Source of the DNA: Desulfuromonadales bacterium
GTDB lineage: Bacteria > Desulfobacterota > Desulfuromonadia > Desulfuromonadales > BM103
Direction: 5' to 3'
Assembly: GCA_029859485.1 (NCBI GenBank)
Contig: JAOUDB010000017.1
Location: 1-17,148, forward strand
DNA length: 17,148 nt
This document shows positions 4,104 through 14,530 of the stretch, in pieces. A program made the position numbers and the translations under genes. How positions within the stretch are numbered: position 1 is the first letter of the stretch; each line of letters starts with the position of its first letter. A model generated the notes under the pieces. The model made no database searches. It had not been told where the DNA came from and worked only from the letters and a program-made list of their open reading frames with translations.

Positions 4104-4796
4104 CTAGGCTGACTCCGCATTATTTGCAGCAGTTTCAGCTTCTGACATACTCTGAATCAGTACTCCGGCACCGATGGTTGCAGCGTGCCGTACCAGGCTA
4201 TCTGCCCGTTTTCCATCATGGTTCCTAAAGGCTTCGATCATATTGCGGTGCTCTTCCACTGATATTTCCATACGGCCTGGCTGTGAAAGGGACGCCAGGC
4301 GCAGGCGCTTGAATCTCATCACCAGCTGGTTAATCATCTCGTAGAGTTTATCGTTGCCGGCCGCCTTGATAAAGAGATCGTGAAACTCATTATGCACACG
4401 GAAAAAGCTCTTGACGTCACCATCCGCAGCGATCTTCTTAAGCCGCTCGTTAATTGATTCGAGCCGATCGATATCTTTCACGGTCAGTTTTTCTGCCGCC
4501 ATCTTCGCAGCAAAACCTTCAAGGAGAATCTTAATCGCATAAAACTCTTCTATATCCCGCTCTGACAAAGACGCAACAACGGCTCCCTTGCGTGGAATCA
4601 CCACAAGATAGCCCTCAGATTCAAGCTGCCGAAAAGCCTCCCTGATCGGGGTACGGCTGATGCCGAAACGTTCCGCCAACTCTGGCTCCGAGACTCGTTC
4701 GCCTGGTTTCATCGTTCCCTTGAGGATAGCATCCCGGATCATCTCCAGGATTTTTTCTCTCAGGGTCTGATGTCTTTCAATTGGTTTTTTGCGCAA
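4104..4796 (-). CDS. GntR-family transcriptional regulator, FadR/FCD subfamily
   Basis: This is a DNA-binding regulator whose ligand is probably a small carboxylic acid or similar metabolite, as known for FCD proteins. The frame is open up to a GTG at 4844, but that codon lies inside the promoter and operator. I therefore chose the TTG at 4796, which has GGAG 6 bases before it and gives 230 residues beginning (M)RKKPIERHQ. The winged helix covers about residues 8-75, with recognition region FGISRTPIREAFRQLESEGYL. The C-terminal FCD domain has the expected histidines at about 139 (EFH), 183 (EEH) and 204 (RHA), consistent with a metal site. A palindrome in its own promoter suggests autoregulation, and an identical one lies before the ATP synthase operon. 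It diverges from the potassium channel gene. The ligand is unknown. Confidence 0.9.
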   Translation of the reverse strand: MRKKPIERHQTLREKILEMIRDAILKGTMKPGERVSEPELAERFGISRTPIREAFRQLESEGYLVVIPRKGAVVASLSERDIEEFYAIKILLEGFAAKMAAEKLTVKDIDRLESINERLKKIAADGDVKSFFRVHNEFHDLFIKAAGNDKLYEMINQLVMRFKRLRLASLSQPGRMEISVEEHRNMIEAFRNHDGKRADSLVRHAATIGAGVLIQSMSEAETAANNAESA

Positions 4797-4826: not shown

Positions 4827-4854
4827 ATTGTATACAGTATACACTCAATGTCAA
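4827..4854 (-). promoter_or_regulatory. Promoter of the gntR-family gene
   Basis: On the minus strand TTGACA (4849-4854), a 16-base spacer and TACAAT (4827-4832) make a strong sigma-70 promoter. Transcription would start near 4820, 24 bases before the TTG start. The palindrome at 4830-4842 fills the spacer and overlaps the -10 box. Confidence 0.75.
4830..4842. promoter_or_regulatory. Palindromic operator GTATAC-A-GTATAC (gntR copy)
   Basis: A perfect 13-base palindrome lies between the -35 and -10 boxes of the gntR promoter, where a bound dimer would block RNA polymerase. Short palindromes are usual for GntR-family dimers. The same palindrome occurs at 13952-13964. That the neighbouring regulator binds it is inference. 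Confidence 0.7.
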
Positions 4855-7982: not shown

Positions 7983-8396
7983 TCAGTGGACTTTCTTACT
8001 CGCCACCTGGACACGAATTAAGGCACGTTCCAAGGCGCACTCCATGATCTTGAACTCTTTGTCTTCGCTTGTAAGCTTCTTGAGAGCTTCCTCTGCGCGC
8101 GAGAGAGCGGCTTTGGCACGTTCTAGATCAATCTGATCAGCCGGCTCAGCTGTTTCGACCAGCACAGTCATAACATTGTCTTCAACTTCCACATAACCCC
8201 AGTTGACTGCAACGTGAAACGTCTCGCCGTCCTTATTATAGGTTAACTCGCCAACCTTCAAGGTGGTCAGCAGGGATGTATGGTCGGGAAGAACACCAAA
8301 CTCGCCAACGGTGCCGGGAGCGGTGACTTCGTCAACCTCTTCCGATAACACGCGTTTATATGGTGTAACCATTTCCAATTTAAGCTTATCTGCCAT
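7983..8396 (-). CDS. atpC: ATP synthase epsilon subunit
   Basis: The epsilon subunit is part of the central stalk of F1 and can inhibit ATP hydrolysis. The 137-residue protein has the N-terminal beta-sandwich (residues 1-85; TPYKRVLSEEVDEVTAPGTVGEFGVLPDHTSLL region) and a C-terminal helical hairpin (about 90-137) rich in charged residues and Ala/Leu, so the regulatory domain is present. It is the last gene of the operon, 33 bases after atpD. AAGGAA lies about 10 bases before its ATG. Confidence 0.96.
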   Translation of the reverse strand: MADKLKLEMVTPYKRVLSEEVDEVTAPGTVGEFGVLPDHTSLLTTLKVGELTYNKDGETFHVAVNWGYVEVEDNVMTVLVETAEPADQIDLERAKAALSRAEEALKKLTSEDKEFKIMECALERALIRVQVASKKVH

Positions 8397-8429
8397 GCCT
8401 ATTTATTCCTTTATGCCGGAATCGTCTGA

Positions 8430-9905
<1,476 letters not shown>

Positions 9906-10781
9906 TTAAGCTTTAATAGACTCAGCGCCGGAGATAATCTCCAGCAGTTCCTTGGTGATAGCAGCCTGACGGGCACGATTGTACTGCAGGGTCAGTTTGC
10001 CAATCATTTCCGAGGCATTCTTACTGGCGCTATCCATGGCCGTCATCCGGGCACCGTGTTCTGAAGCCGCGGATTCAAGCAAGGAGCGGAAAATCTGCAC
10101 TTCGATGTGCTTGGGCAGAATTTCTTCCAGAACCTCAGTGGCATTCGGCTCATAGATATATTCGGTAACCTGTGCACCTTCATCAACGACCTTCGGTACG
10201 ATCGGTAACAGTTGAGTGACCGTTTGCACCTGGGTCATAGCACTCTGGAAGGCATTGTAAATCAGGAAAACGCTGTCGTAATCCCCGCTGCGATAGAGCT
10301 CAATGACTTCCTGGCCAAGCAGCGCTCCAGTCGGGTAGGACACCTGCCCGGTACCAACCAGGTTTTCATGAACCTTGGTGATCTCCATGCCTGCGCGACG
10401 TTTGAGGTAATCGTTGCCCTTACGACCAACGATTAACAGCTCGTAGCTCTCGAAGCCTTCGCCTTTTTCGCGGATAAACCGTTCAGCGGTTTTGGAGATG
10501 TTGGTGTTGAAGCCGCCACAGAGCCCTCGATCGCCAGTAATCAGAACGATTAATGCCTTGCCTTTGCCGCGTTCTGCCAGCAGAGGGTGGCTATCTGCGT
10601 CTTCACGTAGTGCCAGGCTGGAGAGGACATCAGCCATTTTGTCTGCATAAGGACGAGCCGCTACAACGGCTTCTTGAGCACGCCGCAGTTTGGCCGCCGA
10701 AACCATTTTCATGGCCTTGGTGATCTGCTGCGTGTTCTTGACCGTGCCTATTCGTTTTTTTATGTCTTTAAGACTTGCCAT
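9906..10781 (-). CDS. atpG: ATP synthase gamma subunit
   Basis: The gamma subunit is the rotating central shaft of F1. The 291-residue protein starts with the conserved helix [36 protein letters not shown], has the central Rossmann-like domain with [14 protein letters not shown] at about residues 81-94, and ends with the second shaft helix ([16 protein letters not shown] to [16 protein letters not shown]). It follows atpA after 25 bases and precedes atpD by 69. Confidence 0.98.
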
Positions 10782-10806
10782 CTCTTCTTACCCGATCGTT
10801 GCGTTA

Positions 10807-12315
<1,509 letters not shown>

Positions 12316-12340
12316 TATTGCGACCTCATCACCCTGTTCG

Positions 12341-12883
12341 TTAAGGATTCTTCAAGGATTCTTCGATTCGTTTAAGTTGAGTTTTGACGCTGCCATCGAA
12401 AAGGCGACCGCCAATTTCCGCTTGTAAGCCGCCGATCAGATCAGGATTAACTTCAACAGTTAAGGCGATCTGCTTACCTGTCTGCTTCTCCAGGCCGGAG
12501 GCAATCGCCTGCTGCTGAACGTCGTCCAATGCAGTGGCAGCTGTTATTTTAGCGCTCAGGATACCGGACAATTCGTCCGCCTGGCGTCGGTAACTTTCTT
12601 CTATTTGACTGAGGAAGCAAAGACGTCCCTTGCTCAGGAGAAGGCCGAGAAATTTGACCATTCCTTCTGACAACTCAAGGGCCTTGTAGACTTCGGACAA
12701 CATGGCCTGCTTCTTATCCAAGGCCAGGGTGGGGTTGTCGAGCAATTGGCTTAACAACTCTTCCTGAGACAGAACTTCCTTAACTTTGGCCAATTCATCG
12801 GCATAGGCCTCAACAGCCTTTTCTTCCATGCCGATCTCAACCAACGCCTTGGCATACCGTCTGGTTAGGGCACTGACACTCAA
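12341..12883 (-). CDS. atpH: ATP synthase delta subunit
   Basis: The delta subunit joins the peripheral stalk to the top of F1. The 180-residue protein has the N-terminal helical bundle (from [11 protein letters not shown]) and the conserved C-terminal [20 protein letters not shown] at about residues 145-164. Its start appears to be a TTG at 12883 that overlaps the atpF stop (TTGA), with GGGAG about 7 bases before it; no better in-frame start lies nearby. An 11-base tandem duplication, AAGGATTCTTC on the plus strand (12343-12364), encodes its last residues. Confidence 0.95.
12343..12364. repeat. Perfect 11-base tandem duplication at the end of atpH
   Basis: AAGGATTCTTC occurs at 12343-12353 and again at 12354-12364. 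Because 11 is not a multiple of 3, the second copy is read in another frame and supplies the last residues and the stop of AtpH. Confidence 0.85.
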
Positions 12884-13479
12884 TGGAGTTCTCCCACTTT
12901 TTGCATATATTCATCGACCAGACGTATCTGATCGTCTGCAGAAACCTGCTTTTTCAGCATGTCTTCTGCAAGTTCCACGGCCAGACTTGCAGCTTCTTCA
13001 CGCAATTCAGCGCGAGCCTTGGCAACCACACCGGAGGCCTTGTTGTCTGCTTCCTGTTCAATCTTGATTGCTAATTCTTTGGCAGCAGCAATAATCTTGT
13101 CACGCTCCAGTTCGCCTTCGCGACGAATCGAGTCGGTAATACCGGCAATCTCTTCGGTTGCCTTGGCCAGCTTCTCACTGTATTCAAGATGTTTCGCTTC
13201 AGCAGCCTCTTTGGCAGCCTGAGCGTCAGCGAGAGTTTTCTCAATCTCCGCGGTGCGGCCTTTAAGACCTTTACGAATTGGCTTGGTTACAAAATAGGCG
13301 AGCAGGCCAACCAGCAAGGCGAAGTTGAAGCAACGGTATGCGAAGTCCTTAAGAATGACACCACTGTCGGCATGACCACCGCCACCACTTGCCAGAGCGA
13401 CAACTGGCAAGAACACCAGGCTGGTCATAACCGTCAACTTAACCAGGGTGGGCATAAGCTTTGCGTTGGAATTTTTCAT
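12880..13479 (-). CDS. atpF: ATP synthase subunit b, with signal-like N-terminus
   Basis: This is a peripheral-stalk subunit of F0. I chose the ATG at 13479 (199 residues) over the TTG one codon earlier, because GGGAGGG precedes it by 7 bases; it overlaps the atpX stop by one base. The N-terminus carries a hydrophobic segment at about residues 10-30 ending ALASGGGG, like a cleavable signal peptide. A second hydrophobic segment (about 46-65, FAYRCFNFALLVGLLAYFV) is the usual membrane anchor of b. The rest is a long charged coiled coil. With AtpX it probably forms a b/b' heterodimer. Confidence 0.93.
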   Translation of the reverse strand: MKNSNAKLMPTLVKLTVMTSLVFLPVVALASGGGGHADSGVILKDFAYRCFNFALLVGLLAYFVTKPIRKGLKGRTAEIEKTLADAQAAKEAAEAKHLEYSEKLAKATEEIAGITDSIRREGELERDKIIAAAKELAIKIEQEADNKASGVVAKARAELREEAASLAVELAEDMLKKQVSADDQIRLVDEYMQKVGELH

Positions 13480-13904
13480 CAAACGGCCCTCCCGAGTACC
13501 TTACCGGCAATCTCTTTAGCAAGAGCTTCAGTTTGGCCACGCAGTTCCTGACGGGCAGAGTCGGCTTCTTCCTGGATTTGCGCTGTGATCTTCTGCAGCT
13601 TGTCAGCAGCGGTACGATTGGCTTCACCTAGGATGCGGACTTCTTCTTCCTGGCCTGTCTTACGCAGGGCAGAACGTTCCTGAACGCCCTGTTGACGGGC
13701 TTCCTGAAGCTGTGCCTCGTAGCGTGTAATTTGTGACTGTACCTGCTCATCAATATCCTGAACCTTGGCCTTGGAGCTCTCAATGGTTTCTTTGCGAGCC
13801 TGAAGAGCAGCACGCAAAGGCTTGAAGAGCAGTGCATTCAGCACAACCAGAAGAATCATGAAATTGACAAACTGCAGGACCAGTGTCCCGTCTAGCTCGA
13901 TCAC
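13479..13904 (-). CDS. atpX: ATP synthase subunit b'
   Basis: This is the second peripheral-stalk subunit and the first gene of the operon. The 141-residue protein has one membrane helix (about residues 6-27, LVLQFVNFMILLVVLNALLF), the KPLRAALQARKETI transition and a long coiled coil to the end. The start is a GTG with GAGG 7 bases before it. Paired b and b' genes are known in cyanobacteria, Aquifex and many Deltaproteobacteria. The operon holds no a or c subunit gene, which must be elsewhere in the genome. Confidence 0.92.
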   Translation of the reverse strand: MIELDGTLVLQFVNFMILLVVLNALLFKPLRAALQARKETIESSKAKVQDIDEQVQSQITRYEAQLQEARQQGVQERSALRKTGQEEEVRILGEANRTAADKLQKITAQIQEEADSARQELRGQTEALAKEIAGKVLGRAV

Positions 13905-13951: not shown

Positions 13952-13964
13952 GTATACTGTATAC
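13952..13964. promoter_or_regulatory. Palindromic operator GTATAC-T-GTATAC (atp copy)
   Basis: The palindrome is identical to the one in the gntR promoter at 4830-4842 apart from strand orientation. It lies 48 bases upstream of the atpX start and about 50 bases downstream of the best -35/-10 pair. A bound GntR-type dimer here could act as a roadblock to transcription or could control an unseen weaker promoter that overlaps it. Confidence 0.65.
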
Positions 13965-14014
13965 GAAATTAGAAGCGCCTAAAAAGCTTCAAGCTGGGGG
14001 CTCAAAGCAGTGGA

Positions 14015-14110: not shown

Positions 14111-14530
14111 CTACTTCTTGGCGTCAACCTCAACGGCTTTGCTTCCTGCCGCATTTTCGCCGATGTTCATTGTAATCGTACCGTTCAGCAACACGCCATC
14201 CTCTACCGAGATAGCGGGAGTCTCAATGGTACCATCGACCTTGGCCGGAGAACGGAGTTCAACCCTTGTTTTGGCTTTGACATTCCCTTTGAAATTACCA
14301 CTAAGAATCAAGGTTCCAACCTGGATATCGGCTTGGATCTCTGCGCTTTCACCAACAATCAGGGTGTCGTGTGACGTCACTTCTCCACGAAAGGCACCAT
14401 CCAGACGGACAATCTCATTGAACACCAACTTGCCCTCAAATTGGCTACCAGGTCCCAAAAAGGCCTTGATATCACTCTTTTCGATCGGAGTTTCTTTGCG
14501 CATGGATTCTTTTTCCTTCTTGTTGAACAT
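14111..14530 (-). CDS. Bactofilin (polymer-forming cytoskeletal protein)
   Basis: Bactofilins are beta-helical proteins that polymerise without nucleotide at the membrane and act in cell shape, stalks or positioning of other machines. The 139-residue protein has a short basic N-terminus (MFNKKEKE), similar to the membrane-targeting start of some bactofilins. The repeated beta-helix core spans about residues 24-120 (FEGKLVFNEIVRLDGAFRGEV, GTLILSGNFKGNVKAKTRVEL and so on), followed by a short disordered tail. It lies 51 bases downstream of parB without a clear promoter of its own, so it is probably in the parAB operon. In Myxococcus bactofilins are known to work with ParAB, which makes a link plausible here. 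Confidence 0.92.
   Translation of the reverse strand: MFNKKEKESMRKETPIEKSDIKAFLGPGSQFEGKLVFNEIVRLDGAFRGEVTSHDTLIVGESAEIQADIQVGTLILSGNFKGNVKAKTRVELRSPAKVDGTIETPAISVEDGVLLNGTITMNIGENAAGSKAVEVDAKK

Follow-up and report, generated by a model that had tools for sequence, protein, structure and literature searches.

Why the same 13-bp palindrome should stand upstream of both a GntR-family regulator gene and an ATP synthase operon, and which protein recognizes it, is the question raised by this locus. Two exact copies of GTATACNGTATAC were found in the window (the whole stretch of 17,148 nucleotides analysed), at positions 4830–4842 and 13952–13964, and no further copy with up to two mismatches was detected there, in agreement with the first-pass annotation, which had placed both copies and had held them to be the only ones. 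When two mismatches were allowed, two or more matches occurred in 2 of 200 dinucleotide shuffles of the window, with a mean of 0.12. The genome of the organism itself (3.45 Mb in 637 contigs) contains four exact copies and none of a reversed control pattern, and at up to one mismatch 11 matches were counted against 3 for the control. At up to two mismatches the palindrome was not enriched in this genome (40 matches against 59 for the control), and for this reason two-mismatch sites were rejected as operators and only sites with no or one mismatch were used. The earlier view that the palindrome is not a product of chance, which was to be given up if random copies proved to be numerous, is borne out by the mere four exact copies in 3.45 Mb, by the absence of the reversed pattern and by conservation in relatives. 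The two exact copies lying elsewhere in this genome precede icd, the gene of a monomeric isocitrate dehydrogenase, and, at a distance of 309 bp, an rnhA-like gene; in a near relative (G008) the same site lies before rnhA, with a NuoA-like gene behind rnhA.

It is very likely that the GntR protein encoded at 4104–4796 binds TTGTATAC(A/T)GTATACAA, represses its own gene and directly regulates the F1 ATP synthase operon, within a conserved energy-metabolism regulon. The features on the regulator side are the following.

4104–4796, minus strand: gntR, encoding a 230-aa FCD-type GntR regulator; the TTG start at 4796 is our reading, and the mechanical open reading frame reaches 4844.
4827–4854, minus strand: gntR promoter, TTGACA-16 nt-TACAAT (11 of 12 matches), with the putative operator in the spacer and overlapping the -10 box.
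4830–4842, no strand: putative operator GTATAC-N-GTATAC of the gntR promoter, an exact match that is also exact in 73 of 79 orthologue loci.

The protein carries an N-terminal winged helix (PF00392, E = 7e-19, 67.6 bits, above the cut-off of 27) and a C-terminal FCD domain (PF07729, E = 3e-27, 96.1 bits, above the cut-off of 24.3). Among the 25 NCBIfam models listed, of 31 matched, none reached its cut-off, the best score being that of TIGR03338 (138.3 against 271.5 bits). A histidine metal site is common in FCD proteins, while many others are without metal. Across 81 sequences, His155 and His199 are conserved, and the position of His220, which we take to be the C-terminal metal ligand, holds Lys in 70% in a comparison made without structure alignment. 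The ligand might be, at a guess, some central metabolite signalling the supply of carbon or of electron donor. The mechanical open reading frame is 246 aa long and begins with GTG at 4842–4844, sharing one base with the palindrome; homologues are mostly about 224–240 aa long among the 120 matches listed, and the TTG at 4796 is preceded by GGAG in our reading. The true start is probably this TTG, which places the palindrome 34 bp upstream of gntR; with this start the earlier statement that both copies lie outside genes stands, and with the mechanical start it fails for the 4830–4842 copy by that one base. In seven genomes of family f6 (G034, G038, G039, G041, G042, G043 and G046) the GntR match carries one in-frame stop codon, and the proteins may simply end earlier there.

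Of 79 orthologue loci, 73 have the exact site upstream of gntR and the other 6 a site with one mismatch; the loci are the best 80 of 280 relatives, one of which was without upstream sequence. The promoter layout is conserved as well: in the 78 loci that remained when two of the 80 with less than 120 bp upstream were dropped, the operator follows the start of TTGACA (at most one mismatch) by exactly 12 bp in 67, and its end is overlapped by TACAAT (at most one mismatch) in 73. The position of the operator between the -35 and -10 boxes points to autorepression, with GntR seated between the two boxes and blocking its own promoter. In the window, the gene upstream of gntR is divergent and, in our reading, potassium-channel-like. 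It was rejected as a conserved target of the 4830 site, which is kept in Desulfuromusa (L079) next to what we read as another gene.

The second copy of the palindrome belongs to the following setting.

13952–13964, no strand: putative operator GTATAC-N-GTATAC upstream of atpX, exact, 48 bp before the atpX GTG start and conserved in part of the relatives.
13479–13904, minus strand: atpX (F0 b'), first gene of the F1/b/b' operon, from NCBIfam and the operon order in the list of open reading frames.
7983–13482, minus strand: atpF, atpH, atpA, atpG, atpD and atpC, the remaining operon, from the same list, with names from our reading of the translations.
13986–14008, minus strand: terminator-like hairpin behind the preceding gene, just upstream of the operator.

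The best NCBIfam model for AtpX is F0F1 ATP synthase subunit B', with 74.3 bits, under its cut-off of 131. A simple promoter scan found no promoter at the atpX operator region of the window. About 22 bp separate the end of the terminator-like hairpin from the operator downstream of it, so that the atp promoter probably lies between hairpin and atpX, at the operator itself, and this position is likely to be that of a repressor. A small bactofilin-like gene (our reading; 14111–14530) was also observed between parB and the atp operon, with a comparable arrangement in L098 and L104.

Conservation of the atpX site was evaluated in 26 loci with 300 bp upstream, out of the 28 among the 80 orthologue loci with an AtpX match on the same contig; 52 loci without such a match and two with less than 50 bp upstream were left out. 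The site is exact in 16 loci, has one mismatch in one and two mismatches in the same place in another, and is absent there in 8, so that the atpX site is not universal. In the Geobacterales genomes G005, G006 and G007, the best AtpX match has a one-mismatch site in G006 and no site in the other two. Overlapping double operators were seen in two loci (L097 and L106), namely GTATACTGTATACAGTATAC at atpX of Desulfuromusa kysingii and an exact and one-mismatch pair at gntR of Malonomonas rubra.

These figures bear on a reading in which the site serves mainly as the autoregulatory operator of GntR, binding at the atpX copy hardly altering the output of ATP synthase. In its favour, nearly all loci keep the gntR copy, whereas 10 of the 26 have either no atpX copy or an inexact one, and the four f6 genomes examined have an exact site solely before gntR, although each of them has 9–13 further one-mismatch sites, against 0–7 matches of the reversed control. 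Against this, all 16 exact atpX sites start 43–60 bp upstream of the gene and persist at loci whose AtpX identity falls to 36–42%, and four of six genomes have another site before the F0 operon. We consider such a restricted role improbable, and direct regulation of the F1 operon by GntR through the atpX-upstream copy would be the better account.

The assignment of the palindrome to GntR is supported by the distribution of both across the order. A GntR orthologue (E ≤ 1e-40) was found in 102 of 136 genomes, and the exact site is present in all 102 of these, compared with 13 of the 34 genomes without the regulator; 21 of these 34 were thus siteless in whole-genome scans. The reversed control pattern occurred in 4 of the 136 genomes, with one match each. 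Eleven of the 13 regulator-less genomes with the site are assemblies less than 90% complete. When the count was restricted to genomes with a completeness of at least 90% and a contamination of at most 5%, the site was present in 67 of 67 genomes with the regulator and in 2 of 17 without it (Fisher p about 1e-14, with kinship ignored). The regulator-less groups without the site are the families f11 (4 of 4 genomes) and f17 (12 of 14) and the genus g50 (3 of 3); the two f17 exceptions have G or C as the middle base, one lying inside a 573-aa open reading frame and the other within a doubtful one of 66 aa. Two f12 genomes at least 95% complete (G108 and G109; loci L214 and L211) have an exact site before icd and no close GntR orthologue; a search for a diverged orthologue in both gave best matches of 29–40% identity, including one that spans 122 residues at the end of a contig. 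These two genomes are a real exception to the pattern in which the site follows the regulator. On position and co-occurrence, the palindrome is most likely the binding site of the GntR regulator, which would recognize it as a palindromic operator.

The putative targets of the site were examined in six genomes, namely the organism's own (G000), G008 of the same genus, Desulfuromusa kysingii, Malonomonas rubra, Pelovirga terrestris and Geothermobacter hydrogeniphilus; one-mismatch sites were analysed in these 6 of 9 genomes, with the overlapping pairs (atpX of G002 and gntR of G001) counted as two each. With no or one mismatch, 73 sites were found against 11 reversed-pattern matches, and 52 of the 73 precede, within 450 bp, nine operons that recur in four to six of the six genomes (7 + 7 + 6 + 6 + 6 + 6 + 5 + 5 + 4 sites), where about 0.1 would be expected by chance. 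The operons are gntR, atpX, icd, nuoA, acnB and an NADPH oxidoreductase operon with Fer4_20, NADH_4Fe-4S and Pyr_redox_2 domains (six genomes each), followed by sdhC/frd and gltA (five each) and F0 ATP synthase (four). The gltA site is missing in the organism's own genome, the assembly of which is without a citrate synthase match. The genes icd, acnB, sdhC, nuoA and gltA were identified by Pfam or NCBIfam; the first gene of the F0 operon, which had no NCBIfam match, was labelled atpZ from our reading of its translation, as were ppcA, rnhA, selA, ispD, ispF, glnS and cysS from theirs. Another eleven sites have targets that occur no more than twice (a 2-oxoacid:ferredoxin oxidoreductase operon, a pyruvate:ferredoxin-type oxidoreductase, a second nuoA, rnhA, and ppcA-like and multihaem cytochromes), which count for little because the markers were drawn from the sites' own neighbourhoods. 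Altogether 63 of the 73 sites have an assigned target and 10 have none, the assignment at L163 resting on a 23%-identical cytochrome match, and of 35 exact sites in eight genomes, 28 have an assigned target and 7 have none. In Geobacterales, exact sites were found before gntR, icd, nuoA, sdhC and gltA. Besides gntR, the regulon would thus take in gltA, acnB, icd, sdh/frd, nuo, the NADPH oxidoreductase and the F1 and F0 ATP synthase operons, and so a large share of the apparatus with which Desulfuromonadales and, in part, Geobacterales oxidize acetate and carry out oxidative phosphorylation. The original proposal that GntR represses itself and also regulates the F1/b/b' operon gains comparative support from the conservation at gntR (73 of 79) and atpX (16 of 26) and from co-occurrence, and proved too narrow, atpX being one of nine operons.

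The placement of the operator relative to the promoter boxes differs among the targets. At gntR, icd and probably acnB it overlaps the -10 box or the spacer, and repression of icd and acnB by GntR is suggested by this overlap. At nuoA (6 of 6), gltA (5 of 5) and ppcA (2 of 2) it lies 8–12 bp upstream of TTGACA in our reading of the aligned stretches, a placement that would fit activation, or else interference with the contacts of RNA polymerase alpha. Because the operator stands upstream of the -35 box at nuoA and gltA, the regulator may be dual, the same protein repressing some operons and activating others. At nuoA, acnB and the NADPH oxidoreductase, a weaker half-site, GCATAC, has the same orientation throughout the six genomes, which suggests tuned affinity. 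In L006, L150 and L183, the operator of the F0 operon overlaps TACAAT and ends 8–9 bp short of the first gene's ATG, a layout that would imply a leaderless mRNA. The overlap with -10 boxes at gntR, icd and probably acnB would also suit the idea that the repeat is no operator and merely a promoter element, TATACT resembling a -10 box, or a chance restriction-type hexamer. This idea is hardly credible, however, since the site lies upstream of a conserved TTGACA at nuoA, gltA and ppcA, the 13-bp length is maintained together with the two half-sites, and the site is missing in many regulator-less genomes and in none with the regulator.

FCD/FadR-type GntR regulators of central or respiratory genes are represented in Escherichia coli by PdhR and FadR, the latter of which both represses and activates, depending on operator position. 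ATP synthase is, to our knowledge, a direct target of neither. The window GntR scored far under the cut-offs of the PdhR and FadR models (44.9 of 330 and 24.9 of 249.2 bits, respectively), and it differs from both proteins in operator and regulon.

Two regulators of Geobacter come closer. GSU3370, of the GntR family, was reported to bind the gltA promoter, its role being little known (PMC10599522, citing Ueki and Lovley 2010), and the portion of PMC10599522 covered names no operator or regulon for it. HgtR (GSU3364), which was reported to be induced by hydrogen (PMC7894505, citing Ueki and Lovley 2010), was reported to downregulate gltA, atpG (F0 b') and nuoA (PMC7726332, citing Ueki and Lovley 2010), and its gene is described as having an enhancer-binding-protein (EBP) gene upstream and a predicted RpoN promoter. 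The first-pass annotation was aware of no GntR control of an atp operon in this group. In the wider group, control of such an operon by a different protein had already been described, HgtR being reported to downregulate atpG, nuoA and gltA, and the GntR orthologue GSU3370 was reported to bind the gltA promoter. In the portions of the literature covered by the search, which did not extend to Ueki and Lovley 2010, neither a description of the operator nor a literal GTATACNGTATAC string was found. Term searches in the portions covered of the genome papers of Geobacter metallireducens (GTATAC, GntR, GSU3364) and Pelobacter carbinolicus (GntR, HgtR) gave no occurrence.

The gene order of two relatives allows the two regulators to be told apart. 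In L088 and L095 the order is gntR-selA-ispD-ispF-glnS-cysS-small gene-EBP, the last encoding Fe-hydrogenase and sigma-54 activator domains, so that the small gene (59–63 aa) is the sixth after gntR. Its product is weakly like ribbon-helix-helix proteins (RHH_1, 15.7 bits, below the cut-off of 20.5), and a GG-N10-GC sigma-54-type box was seen upstream by eye, where a stricter pattern gave none. The small gene is likely to be hgtR, and the Fe-hydrogenase/sigma-54 activator protein is plausible as a hydrogen sensor switching on hgtR. This activator gene precedes the small gene in three Geobacterales loci (L088:8347–11041, L095:17177–19990 and L094:9861–12548). At least one GTATAC box was observed upstream of the small gene in all three, with two in L095. 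Since the order fits both the six tags between GSU3370 and GSU3364 and the EBP next to HgtR, the window GntR is most likely the orthologue of GSU3370, to which it was likened by gene order and not by the sequence of GSU3370. The possibility that HgtR is the window GntR was rejected by gene order, the neighbour of gntR being potassium-channel-like; HgtR is another gene with another type of promoter, predicted RpoN in contrast to the sigma-70-like promoter of gntR.

A further explanation is that the palindrome is the site of HgtR, as the hydrogen-induced repressor of Geobacter sulfurreducens, with gntR merely one of its targets. The reported HgtR targets gltA, atpG and nuoA coincide with genes that bear the palindrome. 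The fitting small gene in L088, L094 and L095, however, adjoins the Fe-hydrogenase/sigma-54 activator gene and is distinct from gntR, and it is present in the three Geobacterales genomes and had no match in the other six of the nine, all of which bear the sites, the genome of the organism itself included. This explanation is therefore highly unlikely, and GntR remains the preferred reader of the site. A bolder reading would make GntR a dual master regulator in Desulfuromonadia, acting through one 17-bp operator to repress gntR, icd, acnB and the two ATP synthase operons and to activate gltA, nuo and ppcA, the sign and strength being set by operator position and the conserved imperfect half-site, with HgtR added on top in Geobacterales and partly taking over the atp operon; it is put forward tentatively, as a possibility rather doubtful in its full extent.

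Geobacter and its relatives are models for microbial electricity and metal reduction, and little is known of the switches by which the amounts of ATP synthase, complex I and citric-acid-cycle enzymes are adjusted to the supply of electron donor. What is offered here is an operator, a named orthologue (GSU3370) in a genetically tractable strain and a list of nine target operons. The occurrence of the same site before many respiration and citric-acid-cycle genes of relatives suggests that one protein probably helps to pace energy metabolism, and it would be unusual, if true, for a single GntR to coordinate directly the two ATP synthase operons together with complex I and the greater part of the citric acid cycle.
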